Source: Gammaproteobacteria bacterium (lineage in GTDB: Bacteria > Pseudomonadota > Gammaproteobacteria > Burkholderiales > Burkholderiaceae_C). Taken from it: 64,000 bases of DNA. The stretch covers positions 265,704-329,703 of the forward strand of contig JAHIYE010000013.1 of the NCBI GenBank assembly GCA_018815325.1, in the 5' to 3' direction. Both the position numbers and the translations under genes were made by a program. Positions 30,418 through 43,468 of this stretch are shown here, piece after piece. The notes beneath the pieces are model-generated. The model was not told the origin of the DNA. It made no database searches and worked only from the letters and a program-made list of their open reading frames with translations. The first letter of the stretch is position 1. The number at the start of each line of letters is the position of its first letter.

Positions 30418-31446
30418 TCAGGGCTTGCTGCTCTCTGTACGCAACAGGGCTCCGAGCAAAGGCCAGCAAAGCCTTTGCTCCTGAACCGTGCCCCCCTCGA
30501 AGCCAGGAAACAAGGCGGCCACATCCAGCACCCCCACGTTCATCCTCAGCTCCTGGCTCAACCAGTTGGCCAATTCTTCGCTGCGCTCACCTGCCTGCAC
30601 CCGCAGCCCTTCCAGCGGCAATTGGGTCCAGGTACGGTCCCACACATCGAACGAGCGCTGCAACTCCACCACTACCCGTTGTGTCGGATCATCTCCGTCC
30701 TGGGCGGGTGTCGTCACACGTCCCGGAACATACTCCGGCACCTCCGTCATCAAGTCTTGGGGAGCCGCCTGAACGCTCACCGCCTGGCTCCAGCTTGCAC
30801 TCATGAAGCCCTCGCCCAGGTCAATCCGACGGACCTCAAACAATTCTTCATTGGCGGAGATCGTCAACAAGGCCTGTCGCTCATCGACAATGACCAAGGC
30901 AGCGTCAGCCCGCTCCAGCCGCCCCTCACGGCGGGCCAGTGCCGATTGCAGGTTGCGCTGTGCAGTTTCCTGAATATCAATCACCCGCAGCTTCCACTGC
31001 ATGGCCTGTCCCAGGCGCAAGGCCTCTTGCACGACCGATTGACTGGCCACGACAGCAAACAGCTGTCCTTTGGATCTTGCGGACTCGTCACCCACACGCA
31101 TCACGTCGAGCGTGATGTCATCCGCGGAGCCACCTGTAATCTCCAGAATTTTCCAGCGTGCAGCGGAACGGAGTTCCGCGTTGGGCACCATGGGAGCATC
31201 AATCTGCTGCAACTGGTACTGATGGGGGCGAAGCATGCAGCTTGCCTGCAAGCCCTTTAGCCCCAGATCATGCAAGCGACGGATGAACTCCTCATCACTT
31301 GCGTCCCCTTGGTGCTCCAAGCCAAAACGCAGGATCTCATACGAGCCATCTTTTTGAAGTGATGCTTGAACATACGCAAAAGATAGATCTGCCCAGGACA
31401 CCACCAATGCGTCATTTGACTGAGGACTTTGCCACGGCCAGCGCAT
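30418..31446 (-). CDS. mshI: MSHA biogenesis protein MshI (PilM-like)
   Basis: A 342-residue cytoplasmic PilM/GspL-like protein, first gene of the mshI-N operon. Features are VVSWADLSFAYVQASLQKDG, CMLRPHQYQLQQIDAPMVPN and the actin-like fold segments LVIVDERQALLTISANEELF. The start at 31446 (MRWPWQSP) is preferred to a longer in-frame start at 31491. The 394-bp region before it separates the operon from the end of mshQ. Confidence 0.85.
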   Translation of the reverse strand: MRWPWQSPQSNDALVVSWADLSFAYVQASLQKDGSYEILRFGLEHQGDASDEEFIRRLHDLGLKGLQASCMLRPHQYQLQQIDAPMVPNAELRSAARWKILEITGGSADDITLDVMRVGDESARSKGQLFAVVASQSVVQEALRLGQAMQWKLRVIDIQETAQRNLQSALARREGRLERADAALVIVDERQALLTISANEELFEVRRIDLGEGFMSASWSQAVSVQAAPQDLMTEVPEYVPGRVTTPAQDGDDPTQRVVVELQRSFDVWDRTWTQLPLEGLRVQAGERSEELANWLSQELRMNVGVLDVAALFPGFEGGTVQEQRLCWPLLGALLRTESSKP

Positions 31447-31840
31447 TACCGAACGAAACTTATTTGAATTTTCATCATGACTTCTACCCATACCGCCTTG
31501 TTCATATCATCGACAAATACAGGTATTTCCAACAGAGAACGATTCCTGTTACAAATTGTCTTCGACAACCCGTGTCGAAGTGGCTTTTCTCGTCATTTCC
31601 TGCGCATGAATTTGCCTATCTGTGACAAATGCCCCACATCATTTGTGGTTGCCATCACAGATAGCGCATGCTCCGAAATCAGGTGAATCCTACCCAGCAC
31701 GAGCCGGCTTGCAGGGGACCGATCATTTGTTCAAGTTTATTTTTTATCCCGCGACATGAACACACGGGGTTCGACGATATTTTTGTAGGTTTACACCTAC
31801 ATGCGCCGCATCGCCCCATGGAGTACCCGCCCCAAAGGCT
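31447..31840. other. Intergenic region between mshQ and mshI with several inverted repeats
   Basis: No gene is seen. It holds CTTCGACA/TGTCGAAG (31560-31567 and 31573-31580), a 10-bp dyad at 31616-31664 and TGTAGGT/ACCTACA (31784-31790 and 31795-31801). None has a T-run on the minus strand. The region must contain the promoter of the mshI-N operon, so the dyads may be regulator sites or the 3' structure of the mshQ transcript. Confidence 0.6.
31616..31664. repeat. 10-bp inverted repeat upstream of mshI, with a nested 7-bp stem
   Basis: CTATCTGTGA at 31616-31625 and TCACAGATAG at 31655-31664 are perfect inverse copies. Inside, ACAAATG (31625-31631) pairs with CATTTGT (31640-31646). It lies about 170 bp before the mshI start. 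Confidence 0.75.
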
Positions 31841-34800
31841 TCAGTAGTTCTCCCTGCGATAGATCAGCGGAGATTTGAATACGCCAAAGCTAGCGCGGGC
31901 AAGGGGATCCTGGTCGTAATTGGCGCCACACCATCTGCCGTTCAAGTAGGGCAATGCGCTTCCGGCGGGCGTAGGTGTCAACGAGGTCATGGCATTGACC
32001 GTGGGTGGGTTGGCAAGCAAGGACGTGCAATTCCCCCCGCCGCTGGGGCCCACCACATCCGAAGTCGAGCGGCTCCCCAGATTTGCCAGCACGGTCACAC
32101 TGCCTGTTGCCGTACCCGTGGGTGCCAATGTCAAGGTGCCCAGGCCCGCATTGAGGGCATTCACGGTCACGCCGCCTGTCGTTAAATTTGAGCCACTCAG
32201 CAATGGGGCTGTAGCCCCGGGCGGTGCCGTGAACATGCCCAGGCTGATATTGTCAGACGATAAACTCGTGCAACTGTCCAGCGTATTGCGAACGAAAACC
32301 TGCCCACTCCAGTACTGAGTCTCCCATTGCATGGGCAGGGACATGCGCTCCGAGCCAAAAGCATTGAGCAGGCGCAAGCGGCCAAACCGCATTTTCAAGG
32401 GGCTGCCGCTGAACTTCTTGTAACTCAGGGTGCCGCCCACTGCAGAAGGGTTCATGTCGGCCCCCTCCACTTGAGGAGAGGTTGAGACAGAGGCATCCGT
32501 GACTGTCAAGCCGATATCCAGTGCGTCGAAAGGTCCGGATGGGTTGGCTGCGGGCCGGGCAAAAGTCACGGCAGTCCCATTGCTCAAGGAGAAGGTTCCA
32601 TTGGACCAACTTCCGCTCAGGCTCGTCAAGGAAGGAAAGGCCACGACAGAGGCTGCCAGATTGCTGCCGTTATCGGCATTTTCGGCACCAAATGTCACCG
32701 TACCCGAAGCATAGGCACCGCTGTAATTGCTCGTCACACCATTCAATTTGTTGCGGGCTTGAACCACCCCCGTCGGCGCCAGCGCAAAGGCTTGGCCCAT
32801 GTAAGTGAAGCCCCCCGCCGTGCAGGCATTGCTCACAGTCCCGGTTACCGTGAAGTGATGTGGCACAAAGCGACCGAAGGCCCCGGCCGCCGATGAACCG
32901 AATTGGCAGGAATACTTGCCATTGCCATCCAGGGTGTTGCTGAAGCCTGGCGTACATTCACCATTGACTGAATCCACAGCAGCAAAGTTGTCGTCATAGA
33001 TCGCGTACTGCCCGAGGTTGAAATTACCCACCTCATCATAGGTAAAGCTGGCGGTCGATACACCGCTTGTTGCTGCCGGGAAGCTTGAACCCCCAAAGTT
33101 GCCCAGCACCTGAGGTGCAGGCGCAGTGATCAGGCTGGCATTGAGCCGGGGGATACCGTTGTATCCGGTCGTTGTTGCAGCACCCCCATAAACAGCCGTG
33201 GCCGTCAAATTGAAAGCGTCTTCGCCAGCCCTGAAAACGGGAGCGCCGGAACTGCCTGAATTGGTGGCAGTACTCGTGACGTTATAACTTTGTGGGCGGA
33301 TCGCGAAGTTGTCGTTGGAGCATGACTTCACTCCCCCCGAATTGGTCAGGCGTACCCGCACATTGGGGGCCGCGTTGTTGTAGGTGAAATTGAAGGTTTT
33401 TGTCGTGGTACCGCCGTTGAAGGTCGAGGGAAGACCGGGTGTGATGGTGACGCCCGAGAGCGCAGCGTAGCTGCTGCAGGTACCGCTGCTGGCATCGACC
33501 AACTCAAGTGTGCTGAGTGTCTGATTCCCCCCGAGACGCTTGGCATCCAGATTAAAGGCCACGTTCGCCAGTTTGGTAAAGATCGGCGACCCCGCAGCAG
33601 CACCCGACTCGACGGCATCGAAGGTACAGGCACTGAAAACCAGGGCACAGGTCTCGGTCGCGCCATTGAAGCAGCGGGTGGCATTACCCACCACGGGAGA
33701 GCTTGCCCCCCCCCCCAGCGTCACGGTGCCCGCCGCCGTGATGGTCAGCGCCATGTCTACAGACCCGCCCGTGAAAGTCACCGGCTCGGTGGGCGACCAG
33801 CTCACCCCAACTGCAGCATTCGGCGTCAGGTCGACCGTCACACTGCCTGCATACAGGGCCGTACATGCCGCATCGGCACAGGCTTTCACCGTCACGGTAT
33901 TCGGCGTTGAGGTACAGGCGGAGCCGCCATGGTCAATCTGGATGTGGTGCAAGGAAGGGGCCGCTAGCGGCTGGGCGGTACAGATACTCAAATAACCGAT
34001 TTCGTGGGCGTTGGTGAAGGTGCCACTGGAACCCGTAAAAGACAGATTGAAGTTGGTAGGTATCGTGCTTTGGCCATAACCCGGCAACTTGACATCGAAT
34101 GGCGCAATCAGGGGGGTGTAAGCCGTGCCTGCCCCTGAAGTGGTATCGCGCTCCACCGATACATAGGTGTTCGCGGCAACGGTGTTGTCAATGATGATGC
34201 GATAACGGTGCGGAACCGTACCCGGTGGCACGTTATTGCCATCGACGCCCGGCGTCAGCCCAGGCGTCCCCTTGAGAAAGGCATAACCGTTCACCCCCAC
34301 GCCCGACCCTCGTACCGCAATTGAATCCACCACTTGCCCCGTGCCCCCATATCGCCCCTCGGTCGGGTTGGAGAAGTTGCCATATTCATCCAGCGCAATG
34401 CCCAGCCAGCCCCCCGCAAAACCCGGGCAGCCACCTGACACCGTGCAATCCGACCCAGGGTTACTTTTCTGTGCATAGCCCATGGAACCGCCAAAAGCAC
34501 CGGCTGTCGGAGTGACCGAAGCGTTGGAGAGGACCACGGCAATACCGTCGCCTCCCCCGCCCCCGTAGGCGTAATGGTCAAACTCCACCGTCACCTTGTT
34601 CGATGCTGCGGGGATTAAGCGATTCAAAGTCGCCCACGTGGACACACCCGCGCTGGCGTCGGTCAAGCGCAAGCGGTTGCCAAAAATGACCGGACTGCCA
34701 AATGCCCCTGATCCTGACCCCACCGACCAGTTGGCGCTGGGCGCTGAGCCATCAGCCCCCGTGAAGGAAGCCGTGAAACACAAATTCTGTTCGCCTACTG

Positions 34801-37375
34801 CAAACTCGCCAAATCCGTTTGCACTTGTAATGCCTGTGGCCTGGGTCGAATACACGTTTCGGGTGCCATAGGCAGGTGTCGTCCAGGCGCCGGCACTCTT
34901 CCTCGCTACGACGAAGTTGGCCGTGTTGGCGGCGGCATCGACACCGCTGCCGGGACAAGCAATCGCCGTGCTGCAAAACTGGAAGCTTGCCGAGTAGCTG
35001 GTAAAGGCAGTGAGTGTCCCTGTGGTGAGTTTCCAGTAATGGTTGGCGCTCTTGGTCGAATCGATGCCGGAACTGGAGGCCACGGTGTCGGGGTGATCCC
35101 CTGCATCCGCACGCCCGGTCAAGGTGCCGGCTGTTGCGCCCACCATATCCACGGTAACGGGTGCATAGCTTGCGCTATCGCCCACATGGTAAACACAGCT
35201 GCTGCTCCCTGCCAGAAAGGTCAATTGCAGATTGCCCAGGACATAACCACTGGTACGGCTCAGGCTGCCATTGCCACTATTGGTCGAGCAGTTGGTAGCG
35301 AGGCTGAGGGTGTTCGTCAGTGTTGTCAGTTGATTCGCACCGAGTGTCAGCGTGCCGTTCAACACCGTGGTCACCGCACTGCCCCCCAGGCTGATGCCAT
35401 TGCCGTTGTTCACCGTCAGGTTGTTGAGTGCTGTCACGCTGCCTGGCAAACTTACCCCGGCGGCACTGCCGCCAAAGACGAGGCTGGAAGAGGCCGTCGT
35501 TGTCAGGTTGGCAGGTGTTCCGGCAATGGCCGGGCCATTGAGGGTGAGTGTGTTCGAGCCGACCACCAGGGTGGCGGTGTTCAATGTGAGCGTGCCAGCG
35601 ACCGTCACGCTGCCGGCAAGGGACTTCGCCCCGCTGCCGCTCAAGCTCAGGTTGTAATAAGCCGTGGTTTTGACGGTTTGGGCTCCCGCCAGTGTGTAGT
35701 TCACCGAGTTACCAGTGGCAGTAGCAGTCAGCGTGGTAACCCCAGCCGTGCCACCAATATTCAGGCTACCTCCGGCACCGTTGCTCAATTCACCCGTGCC
35801 CGACAAGGCCGTACCGACGGTCAGCGTACCGTTATTCGTTAACGTCACACCGGTGATGGTCAGGTTGTTGATGGTGAGCGCGCTCGCCCCCCCGATCGAC
35901 TGGGCATTGGTGTCAAAAGTGTAGATGCCCGTACCCGAGGTAAAGGTGCTGCCGTTGTGCGTGAGCCCGCCGCGGAAGTTCACGAGGGCATTGCCAGCAT
36001 TGGTCCAGACGCCCCCTGTATTCATCGTCACAGCACCGACATAGGTCTTCGCTGCCGCGCCCGTATGGGCCAGGGTACCGCTGACCGAGGTGGTGCCCGT
36101 GACGCTGTTGGTGAAGTTGGCTGAGCTGAAGGTCGAGCCCGCCCCGACCACGAGGTTGCCGCCAATGCTGAAGGCACTGGCTGTGGTGGCGCTCACCGTC
36201 CCGCTCAGGCTCAGGTTGCCGTTGACGGTTGACACACCAGTGAGGGTCTTGGTGCCACTGCCACTCAAACCCAGGTGATGGTAGGTCGCCGCCTTGACGG
36301 TTTGCGCGGCGCCGGTGTAATTCACCGTGTTGCCAGCGGCGGATGTCGTCAGCGTGGTGATGGCAGAGCTGCCGCCAATATTCAGGCTGCCACTTGCACT
36401 GTTGGTCAAACCGCCCGTGCCCGACAAGGCGGTGGCGACGGTCAGCGTACCGCTGTTCGTTAACGTCACGCCGGTGACGGTCAGACTCGGAATCGCAATG
36501 GCGCTGCTGCCGCCTATGGCCTGGGCATTGGTATCAAATGTGTAGAGACCAGTCCCTGCATTGAAGGCTGCACCGTTGTGCGTCAGCCCACCCCTTAAAG
36601 TAACCGTCGCGTTCGCCGTCGTGTTGCTCCAGGTGCCACCGCTATTCAGCGTGACGGCGCCGGTAAACGTCCGAGTCCCGGTGGTTGACGCCATGTTGAG
36701 GGTGCCCGTGCTGCCAATGCCCGTGCTGCCCGTGATGGTCGTGGTGTCGTACAGGCTGAGCATCCCAGCCTGAATCGTGAGGTTGCCAGTCACCGCCAGA
36801 GTGCCTGTCTGGGTGACCTCAGCGCCAGTCTTGTTGATGGTGAGGCTGTTGGTTGCGGTGACGTTGTAGAACTCGGTGACACCAGCGCTGGAGCCGTCAA
36901 TGGTCTGCGCCGCCGCACCCGTGAAATTGGCAACGCAAAGACTGTTGCTATCTCGTCTCAGATCGAAGACACCATTGTTTGTGATGTTTCCCGTAACATT
37001 GAGCGTGTATGTGGCATTACGATTATTGACAATCAACGAGGCGCCGGATGCCACAGTTATGTTGCCGTTCACGTTTACTGTCCAGGCAGTGCTGTTATTG
37101 GTGGTACCTATGGCAACTGTGCCGCCATTGACCGTAATACCAGTTACCGTGGCATTGGTGTTGATGTTGACCGTGCCCGAATTGACCACCACGGTATCCG
37201 TCGCCTGGGGGGTAGTGCTGTTGCAGTTTGTCCAGGTATTGGTGGTCGTCCAGTTGCCGCCGGTCGAAGTACAGGTAAACCCCCAGGCGCCTTGGCTGCT
37301 TATCAGCAGCCCCACCAAGGCACCGGCCCCCAGCTCTAACAGTCGTCGCAACATAATCAATACAGAATTTTTCAT
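31841..37375 (-). CDS. mshQ: Giant MSHA-locus surface protein MshQ (DUF6701 C-terminus)
   Basis: An 1844-residue exported protein. After a signal peptide (ELGAGALVGLLISSQGAWG) residues about 25-800 form repetitive Gly/Thr/Ser/Asn-rich beta-solenoid-like sequence, including two copies of a 207-residue block. Residues about 865-1130 (FTGADGSAPSANWSVGSG, VTVEFDHYAYGGGGGDGIAV, GGWLGIALDEYGNF) resemble an L-type lectin/concanavalin-like domain, and the last 600 residues fit the DUF6701 module of MshQ, ending KSPLIYRRENY. The coding strand contains an 11-G tract (plus strand 33706-33716). The start at 37375 follows mshP by 5 bp. Probable pilus-linked adhesin; adhesion is inferred. Confidence 0.88.
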   Translation of the reverse strand: MKNSVLIMLRRLLELGAGALVGLLISSQGAWGFTCTSTGGNWTTTNTWTNCNSTTPQATDTVVVNSGTVNINTNATVTGITVNGGTVAIGTTNNSTAWTVNVNGNITVASGASLIVNNRNATYTLNVTGNITNNGVFDLRRDSNSLCVANFTGAAAQTIDGSSAGVTEFYNVTATNSLTINKTGAEVTQTGTLAVTGNLTIQAGMLSLYDTTTITGSTGIGSTGTLNMASTTGTRTFTGAVTLNSGGTWSNTTANATVTLRGGLTHNGAAFNAGTGLYTFDTNAQAIGGSSAIAIPSLTVTGVTLTNSGTLTVATALSGTGGLTNSASGSLNIGGSSAITTLTTSAAGNTVNYTGAAQTVKAATYHHLGLSGSGTKTLTGVSTVNGNLSLSGTVSATTASAFSIGGNLVVGAGSTFSSANFTNSVTGTTSVSGTLAHTGAAAKTYVGAVTMNTGGVWTNAGNALVNFRGGLTHNGSTFTSGTGIYTFDTNAQSIGGASALTINNLTITGVTLTNNGTLTVGTALSGTGELSNGAGGSLNIGGTAGVTTLTATATGNSVNYTLAGAQTVKTTAYYNLSLSGSGAKSLAGSVTVAGTLTLNTATLVVGSNTLTLNGPAIAGTPANLTTTASSSLVFGGSAAGVSLPGSVTALNNLTVNNGNGISLGGSAVTTVLNGTLTLGANQLTTLTNTLSLATNCSTNSGNGSLSRTSGYVLGNLQLTFLAGSSSCVYHVGDSASYAPVTVDMVGATAGTLTGRADAGDHPDTVASSSGIDSTKSANHYWKLTTGTLTAFTSYSASFQFCSTAIACPGSGVDAAANTANFVVARKSAGAWTTPAYGTRNVYSTQATGITSANGFGEFAVGEQNLCFTASFTGADGSAPSANWSVGSGSGAFGSPVIFGNRLRLTDASAGVSTWATLNRLIPAASNKVTVEFDHYAYGGGGGDGIAVVLSNASVTPTAGAFGGSMGYAQKSNPGSDCTVSGGCPGFAGGWLGIALDEYGNFSNPTEGRYGGTGQVVDSIAVRGSGVGVNGYAFLKGTPGLTPGVDGNNVPPGTVPHRYRIIIDNTVAANTYVSVERDTTSGAGTAYTPLIAPFDVKLPGYGQSTIPTNFNLSFTGSSGTFTNAHEIGYLSICTAQPLAAPSLHHIQIDHGGSACTSTPNTVTVKACADAACTALYAGSVTVDLTPNAAVGVSWSPTEPVTFTGGSVDMALTITAAGTVTLGGGASSPVVGNATRCFNGATETCALVFSACTFDAVESGAAAGSPIFTKLANVAFNLDAKRLGGNQTLSTLELVDASSGTCSSYAALSGVTITPGLPSTFNGGTTTKTFNFTYNNAAPNVRVRLTNSGGVKSCSNDNFAIRPQSYNVTSTATNSGSSGAPVFRAGEDAFNLTATAVYGGAATTTGYNGIPRLNASLITAPAPQVLGNFGGSSFPAATSGVSTASFTYDEVGNFNLGQYAIYDDNFAAVDSVNGECTPGFSNTLDGNGKYSCQFGSSAAGAFGRFVPHHFTVTGTVSNACTAGGFTYMGQAFALAPTGVVQARNKLNGVTSNYSGAYASGTVTFGAENADNGSNLAASVVAFPSLTSLSGSWSNGTFSLSNGTAVTFARPAANPSGPFDALDIGLTVTDASVSTSPQVEGADMNPSAVGGTLSYKKFSGSPLKMRFGRLRLLNAFGSERMSLPMQWETQYWSGQVFVRNTLDSCTSLSSDNISLGMFTAPPGATAPLLSGSNLTTGGVTVNALNAGLGTLTLAPTGTATGSVTVLANLGSRSTSDVVGPSGGGNCTSLLANPPTVNAMTSLTPTPAGSALPYLNGRWCGANYDQDPLARASFGVFKSPLIYRRENY
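33706..33716. repeat. Homopolymeric C11 (G11 in the mshQ coding strand)
   Basis: Eleven consecutive C on the plus strand lie inside mshQ and encode part of TVTLGGGASSP. Change by one base would shift frame at about residue 1220 and remove the DUF6701 module. Confidence 0.95.
35640..36610. repeat. Direct 621-bp-period repeat within mshQ
   Basis: The sequence CCCGTGCCCGACAAGGC at about 35793 recurs 621 bp later at about 36414, and similar flanks extend over roughly 340 bp (35650-35990 versus 36270-36610). In the protein this is a duplicated 207-residue block with SGSGTKTLTG/SGSGAKSLAG and YTFDTNAQ repeats. Confidence 0.75.
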
Positions 37376-37380
37376 GGCTA

Positions 37381-37788
37381 TCACGGCTCGATCGAAGCCG
37401 ACACGCTGCGCTCCAGATAGCCGATCTTGCCAACCCCAGAACCACACGGACTTTGGGTACAGGCAACCGACGTCATCCGGATGATGGTCACTGTGTCCCC
37501 TTCATCAAACGTGCTGGCAACACAAGAAATTTCGAGGTTGAAAGAATCCAGCGTGAACGAAGAGCTTGCCGCCGGACAACTGCTGGAAGCCGCCACCTGC
37601 TGTATCTCCCAATCCAGCCCGGCACGCGCCGCCCAGTAGACACGTGAGCCCAGCACATCCTGCGCCGAAGTGATCTGCTGGGTGTTGGAAAAAGTCAGCA
37701 TCGCAGCGCCCAGCACCGCCAGCGTCACCAGTAAAAACACGGCGGCGATGACCGCAAAACCCCGCTGCAAGGATGCGGTCTGTTTCAT
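37381..37788 (-). CDS. mshP: Minor pilin-like protein MshP
   Basis: A 135-residue protein with a prepilin-type N-terminus: QRG before FAVIAAVFLLVTLAVLGAAM. The residue at position +5 of the mature protein is Ala instead of the usual Glu, as in GspK/PilX-like tip or accessory pilins. Two cysteine pairs are visible (ASSSCPAA, EISCVAS, SVACTQSPCG). It overlaps mshO by four bases and is followed by mshQ. Confidence 0.86.
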   Translation of the reverse strand: MKQTASLQRGFAVIAAVFLLVTLAVLGAAMLTFSNTQQITSAQDVLGSRVYWAARAGLDWEIQQVAASSSCPAASSSFTLDSFNLEISCVASTFDEGDTVTIIRMTSVACTQSPCGSGVGKIGYLERSVSASIEP

Positions 37789-38627
37789 GGCGCGTTGTCC
37801 ACATGGACCTCGTGGTAGAGCCGCACCGACTCACCTGTGCCGGGGTCGGATGCCGTGAGGTTCATCTGGATCAAGCCGTTGCGCTGCAGATCGGTACCAC
37901 TGTAGACCAGCGAACAGGTGACATTGCTTGCCATGAGGGTTCCGCCCGTGGTCGGGCATGCCGTTGCCGCATCCATCGAAGCCGGGTAGGTGTAATTGGC
38001 ATTACGGAAGAGATTGCCATTGGTACAAACAAAGGAAACAATTCTTTCATTGCCCGGAATGACATGAAAACGGCTGCTCCCCGATGGCAGCGGGAACTGC
38101 CGGCTGGCGATGCTGATCGTGGCCTCGTTCGCGCCGTCCACAACACCGGTCACGGTCGAGGTATTGCTCCCCGCGTACGCGTCTGAGCCGGGTATGCCGA
38201 GGTTGTACACCGCAATCACATCACCTGTGGCAATTTGCTGCTCTGTGGGCAAGGCACTGTTGAGCCCCAGCATGTTGAAGCTGATGTCGGCTGCAGCAAA
38301 GTTCAAAAAATCAGCCCCCCCCGTGCTGCCAGCCGTGGAGCGATACCGCCCCCCTGTCTTGGTTGGGATGAACTCTATGCACTGGTTGCTGGGATTGCGC
38401 ACGCTATTGGGCAGGGCTTTGCGAATATCGCGTGCCATGCGGCGTACCGCAGTGTCGGCGGTATCGGTCAACCCTGCTCGCTGCACCGAATCGAAATAAG
38501 CATCCACGGGAGACCTCATGAATACAGAAACCGCAGTACCAATGACGCCCATCGTGACGATCACCAGAATCATCTCGATCAGGGTGAAGCCGCGCTGAGA
38601 ATTAGGAATGGGGATACGCATGGTCAA
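37785..38627 (-). CDS. mshO: MSHA minor pilin MshO
   Basis: A 280-residue prepilin-like protein. The N-terminus NSQRG then FTLIEMILVIVTMGVIG is a type IV prepilin signal with Glu+5. The body contains RMARDIRKALPNSVR, typical of MshO/GspJ-type pseudopilins, and a C-terminal WT-like beta region ending VRLYHEVHVDNAP. An 8-G run in the coding strand (38315-38322) is noted. ATGA overlaps link it to mshD and mshP. Start could be 6 bases downstream at the second ATG. Confidence 0.88.
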   Translation of the reverse strand: MTMRIPIPNSQRGFTLIEMILVIVTMGVIGTAVSVFMRSPVDAYFDSVQRAGLTDTADTAVRRMARDIRKALPNSVRNPSNQCIEFIPTKTGGRYRSTAGSTGGADFLNFAAADISFNMLGLNSALPTEQQIATGDVIAVYNLGIPGSDAYAGSNTSTVTGVVDGANEATISIASRQFPLPSGSSRFHVIPGNERIVSFVCTNGNLFRNANYTYPASMDAATACPTTGGTLMASNVTCSLVYSGTDLQRNGLIQMNLTASDPGTGESVRLYHEVHVDNAP

Positions 38628-39070
38628 TAGTCCCCCCGATAACCGGTAGCCGTGATGCTCTCCCCCCCGCCTGTCACGGTGACACGGACACGCTTCATGG
38701 CTTGTCCATTCACTGTCGCAGGAGGGTCGACAACGATGGCAATGACATATCTCGCTGACACCTCAGCAGGCAAGTCCGTAAAGGCCGCATTGGATATTCC
38801 GTTGTAGTCATCCACATCGTCATAAGTGCTGCGCCCACTCTCCACAACATTGGGCAGACCATCCGGGTCTTCATATTCCTTTTGAAGAACCTCCTCCATG
38901 ATGGAGTCTGCCAGTGCGATGGCCTGCTTGCGCAACATGGGGTCAGCGCTGGATTGGACGACCGTGTTCACCACCAACACGATGCCAGCCACCCCGATCG
39001 AGACCACCACGATAAAGATGATCAACTCGACCAGGGTAAACCCGAGCTGGCGGCGCGAATATCTACTCAT
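38624..39070 (-). CDS. mshD: MSHA minor pilin MshD
   Basis: A 148-residue prepilin-like protein with SRRQLG then FTLVELIIFIVVVSIGVAG, followed by RKQAIALADSIMEEVLQKEYEDP, characteristic of MshD/GspI-type pseudopilins. The ATG at 39070 overlaps the mshC stop as ATGAGTAG; another ATG two codons upstream is also possible, while longer forms would disturb the leader peptide. Confidence 0.88.
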   Translation of the reverse strand: MSRYSRRQLGFTLVELIIFIVVVSIGVAGIVLVVNTVVQSSADPMLRKQAIALADSIMEEVLQKEYEDPDGLPNVVESGRSTYDDVDDYNGISNAAFTDLPAEVSARYVIAIVVDPPATVNGQAMKRVRVTVTGGGESITATGYRGDY

Positions 39071-39572
39071 GAACATATCCGGTTGCCAACTCAACCGTGA
39101 TGCTGTTGGCCGCACCAGCAACCGAGAAGGTCTGAGCTGCACTGGCCTGCCCCAGGGCGTCGAAGCGGAAGGCTGCGGGCACACCGACATACGTGACCGT
39201 ACCTCGTGCAGTGACCATACCGGGCGTATTGCCATCTGGGCCTGTCAAGTTGCTTTCACACCCGCTAGAGCCGGTCACCGAACTCCGATCCGCATCCACC
39301 GTCAGCGTGGCCTGTGTGCTGGTAAAGGTGACGCAGACAGTGCGGCGCTGCGCGACCGCAGACTTTTGCGCGTAACGCAACAGCGAGCGTGTTTGGTCAT
39401 GAAATGCACGCACATTGAAGTCTGTGGGGTTGAAACGGGGGGCAACAAACACCGCCAGAATCCCGACCAGCAGCATCACCATGACCAACTCGATCACCGT
39501 AAAGCCAGCTTGCTCTTTGCCAAGACACAGACCGAGGCGCTTGGCGCGGAACCTTGAAAACTCAATAGGCAT
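39063..39572 (-). CDS. mshC: MSHA minor pilin MshC
   Basis: A 169-residue prepilin-like protein. The leader KEQAG precedes FTVIELVMVMLLVGILAVFVAPRF; the 18-24 residue pre-leader is longer than in MshA. RTVCVTFTSTQATLTVD and SGCESN suggest a disulphide in the globular domain (GspH-like). First gene of the mshC-D-O-P-Q unit, with overlapping reading frames downstream. Confidence 0.87.
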   Translation of the reverse strand: MPIEFSRFRAKRLGLCLGKEQAGFTVIELVMVMLLVGILAVFVAPRFNPTDFNVRAFHDQTRSLLRYAQKSAVAQRRTVCVTFTSTQATLTVDADRSSVTGSSGCESNLTGPDGNTPGMVTARGTVTYVGVPAAFRFDALGQASAAQTFSVAGAANSITVELATGYVHE

Positions 39573-40555: not shown

Positions 40556-42736
40556 TCAGTTCTCAAGCTTTTCACCACGACACCACGCCGTCCACATCCG
40601 CCGCAATAATGCCTCCAAATCCCGGGTAAACGGCTCGGCTTGGCACAAGGGGCTGGCTGCCATGCGTGACCGGATATCTTTTCTCAGCTCAGCGAGTCTG
40701 GCCGGGTTATTGGCCAGCGCAATGGCACCCTCGACATAGGCATCCACATCCGGAAAAGCCAACTCTTCAGCCAACCCAATATTGGCCAATGCAGAGATCG
40801 TTTGACGCGAAACGACAGAGTCCCCGCTGATAGTCACCACGGGGACGCCCATCCACAGAGCCTCCAATGTGGTCATGCCGCCATTGAATGGGAATGGATC
40901 CAGCGCAATATCGATTTCCCGATATTCTGCAAGCATCTCTTGGTGTGGGGATGCCCACTCTAAATCGAGACGGGTTGCATCGACACCCCGCGTGGAGAAT
41001 TGCTCGATAAGCCGTTCACATACCCGCTCATCTTCTAGCGCCGCGTTTTTCAACAGCAGACGACTATCAGGTACGGTCAGAAGAATTTGCGCCCATGCAT
41101 CAAGCACTTGTGTGTTTAACTTTGCCAGGCGGTTGAAAGATCCGAAGGTTATAAAACCTTTGCCACCTTCTGGTCGTAAACACACCTCATCTGCATACAG
41201 CGGTGCAACATAACAAAAGCGGCTATGCGGTAGATACACCGGCGTTTCAGAAAATAGCTGGCCGCTTTGGAAGGGGCTGGTATGAGGGTCGGTAATATAG
41301 TAATCAATCGACGACATGCCAGTCGAATGAAAATAACCAATCCAGGTGGCCTGAACTGGCGCTGGACGACGGGCAAAAACGAGCAATCTATGAAACCCCG
41401 TGTGTCCCGAAAGATCAATCAATACATCAATTTCTGCCTCTCGGATTCTGGTGGCCAGTTCTTCCTCGCTCAGGTAAGGAACATTTTCCCAGACATCCGC
41501 CGCAGCCTCTATTTCAGCCGTAACGTGGTCAGACTGCATATTGACAGAAAAGCAATATATTGTGTAATGCGCCCGGTCATGGTTTCTCAATACATCCAAT
41601 ATCAGCCCACCCACGGGATGACTGCGAAAATCACCTGACACATATCCAATTCGTAATTTTCGCCGTGGATCACGGTCACGATCATCAAATGATGCCACCG
41701 CTTGCAGAGGAACCGCATACTTATCAGCCCATGCCTTATGGCGGAGAAACTTCTCCTCACGGGATAAATCAGTTAAGTAGTTCAGCTCAAAGAGAACTGG
41801 CGAAGCCAATGACAATTGATTTCGACTCAGCTCGGCAATTTGCGCATAAATCGGATGTGCAGCTTGCGCATCTCCGCCGTCACTAATGCATGCCGCCAGG
41901 GTCATGTGAGCACTCAGGCAATCGGGCTGGCGATCGATAACACGGCGGCAAATCTCTTCGGCTTTTGCAAGATGGCCCACGGCCTTATGTGCTCCGGCAA
42001 GATAACAAAGCAGGTTAACCGACTCTCCTCGCTGCTTGATCTGACGCTCAAGATAGTCGATTGAATTCATCAAATCGACTGTAGACCCCAGCAAAATTCC
42101 CAGATTGAAATGCGCCTCTGCATAGCCCGGTCGTAATTCCACGGCCCTCCTGTAGTGCTTGATGGCATCAGTAATCTGGCCCGAATGCATTAGCAGATTG
42201 CCGAGAGTTCCATGGGATTCGGGGCGCTCAGGTTCATCGGATACCAGTTGCTCAGCAAGTTTCCGCGCCTCCTCAAAACGTCTCTGCTCGAATAAAGCCG
42301 TCGCTTTATTGACCCTGGCATCGAAAAAATCAGGCTCTAAAGTCAGCGCCTTGTCAAACCAGCCGATCGCCTCGTCGCTTTGCCCCTTGGCGATGCACCA
42401 TTCGCCCAAATTACTGAGTACCCGTGGGTCATCTGGCTTCAAGACAAGAGCCTTTTCATAGGCTTGGCGGGCTGCATCTAGTTGTCCTGCATTGCGATAA
42501 GCAACGCCCAGACTGCATCGAAGGCTGGCATCCATGGGCTTAAGAGTCACCGCTTTTTCAAGTTGAGCGATCGCCTGCTCATCCTCGCCGCGCTGCATTG
42601 CTCGCCGCGCGAATTCATGCATGGCCCTTACATCCCCCGTCGCCGCCGCATGTCGATCGAGGGTATCGGCCACACTGCCTAGTCCACGCTTCTCAAGCCA
42701 GCGTGCCACCCAGTACATGATTCGACTAACAACCAT
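40556..42736 (-). CDS. TPR protein with GT41 O-GlcNAc-transferase-like catalytic domain
   Basis: A 726-residue protein. Residues about 35-290 contain six or more TPR repeats (SLGVAYRNAGQLDAARQAYE, NLGEWCIAKGQSDEAIGWFD). Residues about 350-720 form the GT41 domain: RIGYVSGDFRSHPVGGLI with the catalytic-region His, DVLIDLSGHTG, PAPVQATWIGYFHSTGM, FGSFNRLAKLN, the nucleotide-contacting Lys in LLLKNAA, and LDPFPFNGGMTTLEALWMGV. Such enzymes transfer GlcNAc or related sugars to Ser/Thr. It closes a tight three-gene set after mshA (6 bp after the methyltransferase), so pilin or flagellin modification is a reasonable inference. Confidence 0.9.
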   Translation of the reverse strand: MVVSRIMYWVARWLEKRGLGSVADTLDRHAAATGDVRAMHEFARRAMQRGEDEQAIAQLEKAVTLKPMDASLRCSLGVAYRNAGQLDAARQAYEKALVLKPDDPRVLSNLGEWCIAKGQSDEAIGWFDKALTLEPDFFDARVNKATALFEQRRFEEARKLAEQLVSDEPERPESHGTLGNLLMHSGQITDAIKHYRRAVELRPGYAEAHFNLGILLGSTVDLMNSIDYLERQIKQRGESVNLLCYLAGAHKAVGHLAKAEEICRRVIDRQPDCLSAHMTLAACISDGGDAQAAHPIYAQIAELSRNQLSLASPVLFELNYLTDLSREEKFLRHKAWADKYAVPLQAVASFDDRDRDPRRKLRIGYVSGDFRSHPVGGLILDVLRNHDRAHYTIYCFSVNMQSDHVTAEIEAAADVWENVPYLSEEELATRIREAEIDVLIDLSGHTGFHRLLVFARRPAPVQATWIGYFHSTGMSSIDYYITDPHTSPFQSGQLFSETPVYLPHSRFCYVAPLYADEVCLRPEGGKGFITFGSFNRLAKLNTQVLDAWAQILLTVPDSRLLLKNAALEDERVCERLIEQFSTRGVDATRLDLEWASPHQEMLAEYREIDIALDPFPFNGGMTTLEALWMGVPVVTISGDSVVSRQTISALANIGLAEELAFPDVDAYVEGAIALANNPARLAELRKDIRSRMAASPLCQAEPFTRDLEALLRRMWTAWCRGEKLEN

Positions 42737-42742
42737 TAACGC

Positions 42743-43468
42743 TCAAGGGATTGCCACCAGATACTCTTTGGCCAAATCCGACATTTCGTTATGGCTGCGA
42801 GGTGACTTGCTCGCCAACGCCCAAAGATCAAGATTTTCTGAGCGCTGAAACCCCTCCACGGCCGCAAAGCCCGCCTCAACGAGTGAGGACTTCAGTGTCT
42901 TCAGGGTAAACCCATTATGGTGTGCCATGAAGAGATTACCGGCTGCCATCGCTTGACGGTGCCCATAAAGCACATCGATGGGGGCGATCGGCCCCATAGC
43001 TGACAAATAGGCCATCTCATCCAGTTTATCCTCGACCACCAAGCGGCACAAAGACTGCAGATCGGGACATGTCACGACCAGAAAACCTGCCGGTTTCAGC
43101 ACACGGTAGAACTCGGCCAAAGCAACTGGCACTTCATGAGGATATAAGTGCTCAATGTTATGTGAGGAATAGATGGCGTCAGCAAAACTATCGGGAATAG
43201 CCGACAAGTCCGTCATCGTGCCAGTGATGTCTGGAGCAACAGCCGCGTCAGCATCAAACCGAACTTCGTGCCATGCCAACGACTGAAACCCGGCAACAGG
43301 GATGTTTCTGATAGTGGCAGGCCCGCAACCGACATGCAATAAAAACAGCGTGTTTTTTGATGCGGTCCTTGCCAGATCGTTGGCCAGGCTACGCCGACCC
43401 AGCCCATAACGGACTTTTATCCAATCAGAACAACGGCCAATCCAGCGATCAACGAGTCCATGCAACAT
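42743..43468 (-). CDS. SAM-dependent methyltransferase, class I
   Basis: A 241-residue methyltransferase of the UbiE/Methyltransf_11 type. The SAM-binding motif is LFLLHVGCGPATIRN; the later acidic and aromatic motifs DSFADAIYSSHNIEHLYPHEV and EFYRVLKPAGFLVVTCPDLQ are typical of enzymes acting on glycans or small molecules. It lies 5 bp after a small gene and 6 bp before the GT41 gene, so it likely acts on the sugar or on the pilin-modifying pathway. The substrate is unknown. Confidence 0.87.
   Translation of the reverse strand: MLHGLVDRWIGRCSDWIKVRYGLGRRSLANDLARTASKNTLFLLHVGCGPATIRNIPVAGFQSLAWHEVRFDADAAVAPDITGTMTDLSAIPDSFADAIYSSHNIEHLYPHEVPVALAEFYRVLKPAGFLVVTCPDLQSLCRLVVEDKLDEMAYLSAMGPIAPIDVLYGHRQAMAAGNLFMAHHNGFTLKTLKSSLVEAGFAAVEGFQRSENLDLWALASKSPRSHNEMSDLAKEYLVAIP

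Follow-up and report, generated by a model that had tools for sequence, protein, structure and literature searches.

A run of eleven C, longer than every other homopolymer in the 64-kb window (the whole stretch of DNA analysed here, 64,000 nucleotides), forms a G11 tract on the opposite strand, within the reading frame of mshQ. We lean towards the view that this tract is an incidental, slippage-prone and apparently lineage-specific hotspot, which would be able to generate reversible ON/OFF heterogeneity in a pilus adhesin and is not demonstrably a selected switch. The tract resembles a contingency locus in that it is an in-frame G/C repeat of at least nine bases, nine being the published screening cut-off for slippage-prone tracts (PMC5953494), and in that a change of a single unit ends the full-length product, at codon 1255 or 1367 of 1868. 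Recurrence or enrichment, which is supportive of a contingency locus and not strictly defining, is not seen among the relatives searched, and the distribution of run lengths across the genome fits chance, although a run this long is improbable within mshQ itself.

The G11 tract within MshQ and the msh cluster

In frame, the tract reads CTG GGG GGG GGG GCA, encoding L-G-G-G-A, and lies about two-thirds into mshQ, starting at codon 1244 from the GTG or at about codon 1220 from the internal ATG (Table 1). The sequence-only reading had located G11 near residue 1220, before a conserved C-terminal module, and both its coordinates and this placement are borne out, with DUF6701 beginning at residue 1255, just past the tract. 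The gene product is recognised as MshQ by this C-terminal DUF6701 (PF20419), which is preceded by N-terminal repeats, an L-type lectin-like domain and a small β-sandwich, the strand TVTLGGGASS of the latter holding the three glycines encoded by the tract. A structure model of residues 885-1275 (mean pLDDT 70) places this strand at model positions 356-366, in a block with a pLDDT of ~83. When compared with the PDB using Foldseek, the model matches legume/L-type lectins, with pea lectin as the best match (1.9e-9), and the lectin-like region additionally gives a sequence profile match to the legume lectin 7elv (E 8e-4). From the predicted fold and the profile match, MshQ appears to bear an L-type (legume) lectin-like domain, which is of interest given the term "mannose-sensitive" in the name of the MSHA pilus. 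For DUF6701, a 919-residue model was too poor for use, a sequence search returned no solved relative, and our literature search found no work on DUF6701 or on tracts in Comamonadaceae. In V. cholerae, the absence of mshQ reduces surface MSHA and does not stop retraction (PMC7096442).

Table 1. Coordinates of mshQ, its domains, its tract and the related features discussed in the text (window positions unless stated otherwise)
Feature	Position	Strand	Remarks
mshQ	31841..37447	-	1868 aa, counted from the GTG start; an internal ATG lies near residue 25
L-type (legume) lectin-like domain of MshQ	33971..34795	-	~aa 885-1159, upstream of the tract
Small β-sandwich of MshQ	33686..33952	-	~aa 1166-1254; strand TVTLGGGASS
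DUF6701 (PF20419)	31850..33685	-	aa 1255-1866, E 4.3e-69
G11 homopolymer in mshQ	33706..33716	-	codons 1244-1248; C11 on the + strand
Stop in the +1 allele (G12)	33684..33686	-	codon 1255; derived coordinate
Stop in the -1 allele (G10)	33346..33348	-	codon 1367; derived coordinate
G7 in mshQ	35887..35893	-	codon 519; slip would end the frame at codon 529 or 539
G8 in mshO (37785-38627)	38315..38322	-	codon 102; slip would end the frame at codon 106 or 108
G7 in mshD (38624-39235)	38662..38668	-	codon 190 of 203, 14 codons before the end
mshI-like gene	30418..31491	-	downstream of mshQ; first gene of the densely packed mshI-M cluster
C18 run	G000:C14:513229-513246 (L004:1501-1518), outside the window		end of TetR-family gene / start of RND efflux periplasmic adaptor (TIGR01730)

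The deposited G11 allele corresponds to the open-frame (ON) state of mshQ, and when G counts from 7 to 15 were checked, the frame remained open through DUF6701 only at 8, 11 or 14 G. In both the G10 and the G12 allele, the DUF6701 sequence is lost from the frameshift onward, such that most or essentially all of the domain is gone, while the repeats and the lectin-like domain are kept.

By its operon context, the locus is an MSHA type IV pilus cluster that includes mshQ: mshC, mshD, mshO and mshP precede mshQ with short overlaps between the genes, and genes for a secretin, a GspF-like protein (T2SSF), a PilN-like protein, an AAA ATPase and pilins (N-methylation pilins) lie nearby. A second block, extending from the mshI-like to the mshM-like gene, is encoded on the same strand as mshQ after a gap of 349 bp, and a simple scan of that strand between 31200 and 32200 detected no promoter-like or terminator-like site. 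Polarity arising from truncation of mshQ could affect the mshI-like gene. We also note that genes for a TPR/glycosyltransferase family 41 (O-GlcNAc transferase-like) protein and a methyltransferase reside within the msh cluster (40556-43468), between a pilin-like gene and mshC, which suggests glycosylation of the pilin.

The sequence-only reading had additionally listed runs of 8 G in mshO and 7 G in mshD as tracts of the same operon. Their coordinates are right, and a slip would indeed disrupt mshO, but its G8 is of ordinary length, being one among 50 genomic runs of exactly 8, and a shift in the mshD tract leads to a product of 210 aa or to fusion of MshD with MshO rather than to an off state. 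Both tracts have ordinary lengths and add little to the case for a switch. A G7 run at codon 519 of mshQ was absent from that reading.

Run lengths across the genome and among DUF6701 genes

The whole genome (3.86 Mb) contains 66 G/C runs of 8 bases or more, comprising 50 of 8, 13 of 9 and one each of 10, 11 and 18. Under a second-order Markov model, with parameters drawn from the window and scaled to 3.86 Mb, ~67, 16, 3.7 and 0.9 runs of at least 8, 9, 10 and 11 bases are expected genome-wide, compared with the 66, 16, 3 and 2 observed. Depending on the model, ~0.01-0.06 runs of at least 11 are expected per 64 kb and ~0.9-3.9 per genome, where two are found (11 and 18). Within the gene, a run of 11 bases or more arises in 3% of synonymous-codon shuffles of mshQ, irrespective of position, and at the site of the tract in 0.9%. 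G11 is locally unusual, yet it sits on the ordinary tail of the genome-wide lengths. There are also eight 6-base G/C runs in mshQ against 3.2 expected, and we leave room for some local process or selection for G runs in this gene. The idea that the genome is simply rich in G runs can be set aside, given that the census agrees with the Markov model and that genomes of the family commonly hold 0-2 runs of at least 11; at least one such run is present in 79 of 121 family genomes, mostly as one or two.

The other long runs are found mostly in housekeeping genes. Those of 9-10 bases lie within, or at one end of, surA, fabH, a polA-type exonuclease gene, ptsI and argS, the run in argS being located mid-gene, as well as genes for an ABC transporter, a radical-SAM methylthiotransferase-like protein, an AcrB-type pump, a glycosyltransferase and an aldehyde dehydrogenase, among others. 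In one family genome (G012, L129:1502-1512), mreB carries a G11 that reads ACG GGG GGG GGG GCG and shares its codon register with the mshQ tract. An in-frame G11 is thus compatible with an essential gene and is not, on its own, the mark of a switch.

In this genome, the C18 tract (Table 1) alone stands clearly outside chance expectation. It encodes a tail of prolines on a TetR-family regulator, and the TGA of the regulator gene overlaps the ATG of the RND adaptor. Depending on the length of this tract, the regulator has its normal end, gains an extension or runs on into the adaptor: C16 or C19 would join the two proteins in frame, and C17 would yield a 313-aa protein. The tract is present at none of the TetR/RND junctions of 29 family relatives. 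As a candidate for slippage, C18 ranks above the G11 of mshQ.

At the site homologous to G11, the aligned relatives have TVTLG- or TVTLGG-like strands that are encoded by mixed Gly, Thr, Ser or Ala codons and contain no run, which rules out conservation of the tract in these relatives. Among the genomes searched, where the genus is represented by a single genome, the tract is private to this one; the scan of named genomes contributed only four mshQ relatives, all distant. A run of 11 or more on the mshQ contig of a further family genome (G027, C281:157789) was set aside; it falls within a short ORF of unknown kind, 18 kb away from the mshQ of that genome. DUF6701 genes are likewise not enriched in G/C runs, and depletion is seen instead. 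For 95 other such genes, totalling 304 kb (L017-L050, L146-L210) and in many cases partial (the match plus 1.5 kb), synonymous shuffles predict 152 runs of at least 6 bases and 75 are present; for runs of at least 8, 14.8 are predicted and 6 are present, and runs of at least 10 are absent from this set. Per Mb, runs of at least 8 number 20 in the DUF6701 genes, equal to the background of 17 in this genome. The occurrence of G/C runs of at least 6 at about half the expected frequency suggests that slippery runs are selected against in long DUF6701 genes.

Predicted consequences of slippage and alternative readings

In the reading that we favour, polymerase slippage would add or drop a G in the mshQ tract at an elevated rate, and a minority of cells would produce an MshQ that ends at codon 1255 or 1367, retaining the repeats and the lectin domain and lacking a working DUF6701. 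The untranslated mRNA downstream of the new stop may in turn reduce expression of mshI-M through polarity. The tract itself would most likely persist as a mutational hotspot that is tolerated in a dispensable surface adhesin. Missing mismatch repair as the cause was rejected on finding a MutS_V protein (mutS family) encoded in the genome. Because a mutS-family gene is present, slippage may be slow. By analogy with V. cholerae mshQ, fhaB and pilC, the rate at which G11 slips is probably low but still elevated, mismatch repair notwithstanding. What speaks against an incidental hotspot is the low chance of such a run within mshQ, the surplus of 6-base G/C runs in this gene, the presence of the mutS-family gene and the suggestive placement of the tract in a pilus adhesin rather than in any other gene.

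The first alternative to be weighed is a selected phase-variation (contingency) switch, in which G11 is maintained because reversible frameshifts switch production of the MSHA adhesin, as with fhaB of Bordetella pertussis and pilC of Neisseria, and which we consider unlikely. It is favoured by the gene class (an adhesin of the cell surface, encoded within a type IV pilus operon), by a tract length above the cut-off of 9 with truncation by either single-base shift, by the precedents of V. cholerae mshQ, fhaB and pilC, and by the low chance of such a run within the gene. The sequence-only reading had proposed a phase-variation switch, and of that proposal the slippable length, the truncation at or within DUF6701 by a single-base slip and the V. 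cholerae mshQ C8 precedent stand. Its element of selection is opposed by the genome-wide run lengths, which fit chance, by the restriction of the tract to this genome among those searched, by the depletion rather than enrichment of runs in DUF6701 genes, by the presence of long runs in essential genes, by the position of the tract two-thirds into the gene instead of near its start, and by the ordinary nature of the mshO and mshD tracts. A fuller version of this scenario, in which the selected switch acts on a lectin-bearing MSHA adhesin, a slip sheds DUF6701, polarity on mshI-M could cut pilus assembly overall and part of the population becomes non-adherent, is in our estimation somewhat less likely still. 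As it stands, the case mainly illustrates that long G runs, even in plausible genes, carry little weight as evidence, comparable runs being present in argS here and in mreB of a relative.

Plain chance, by which the tract would amount to three GGG codons after a CTG in a glycine-rich strand, effectively stable and with no phenotype, appears improbable to us. Each genome is expected to contain about one run of 11 bases or more, GGG accounts for 23% of the Gly codons of mshQ, similar runs occur in mreB and argS, and the mutS family is present, all of which agree with such an origin. However, the indel rate in bacteria climbs with homopolymer length (PMC5854121) and the G10 of fhaB is polymorphic within isolates (PMC7446907), and full stability of G11 is unlikely on account of both. 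A miscounted tract in the draft assembly (27 contigs) seems very improbable, since, although 11-base homopolymers are error-prone in some sequencing chemistries, only 8, 11 or 14 G keep the frame through DUF6701, the C-terminus of MshQ aligns with its relatives to the end, and an error of one or two bases is unlikely with this conserved C-terminus following in frame.

Comparison with known slippage systems

The closest precedent by gene is the C8 tract in mshQ of V. cholerae, which mutation-accumulation experiments, chiefly those with mutS lines, place among the mutagenic repeats (PMC5854121). As in the present case, it is a G/C homopolymer within the coding sequence of mshQ, and it has been linked to biofilm transitions (PMC5854121). 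It differs in being C8 rather than G11 and in being clearest in mismatch-repair-defective lines, and Vibrio is no close relative. The likeness is one at the level of the gene.

FhaB is a two-partner secretion adhesin and not a pilus protein, and the PilC/PilY1 family differs from the MshQ family. The G10 tract of B. pertussis fhaB is nevertheless similar in that it is an in-frame poly-G within a giant surface adhesin, where both single-base shifts truncate the product (PMC7446907). In contrast to the mshQ tract, it lies near the 5' end of its gene (nt 1078 of 10,773), and mixtures of G10 with G9 or G11 alleles were shown in 49 of 49 isolates (PMC7446907). Neisseria pilC switches through tracts of 9-20 G that recur across strains (PMC5953494), whereas the mshQ tract is known from one genome only; the two share an in-frame poly-G/C tract in a type IV pilus-associated protein (PMC5953494). 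Should the mshQ tract switch, it could explain adherent/non-adherent heterogeneity in this bacterium, and the poly-G switching of adhesins seen for fhaB and pilC would extend to the MSHA pilus outside Vibrio.
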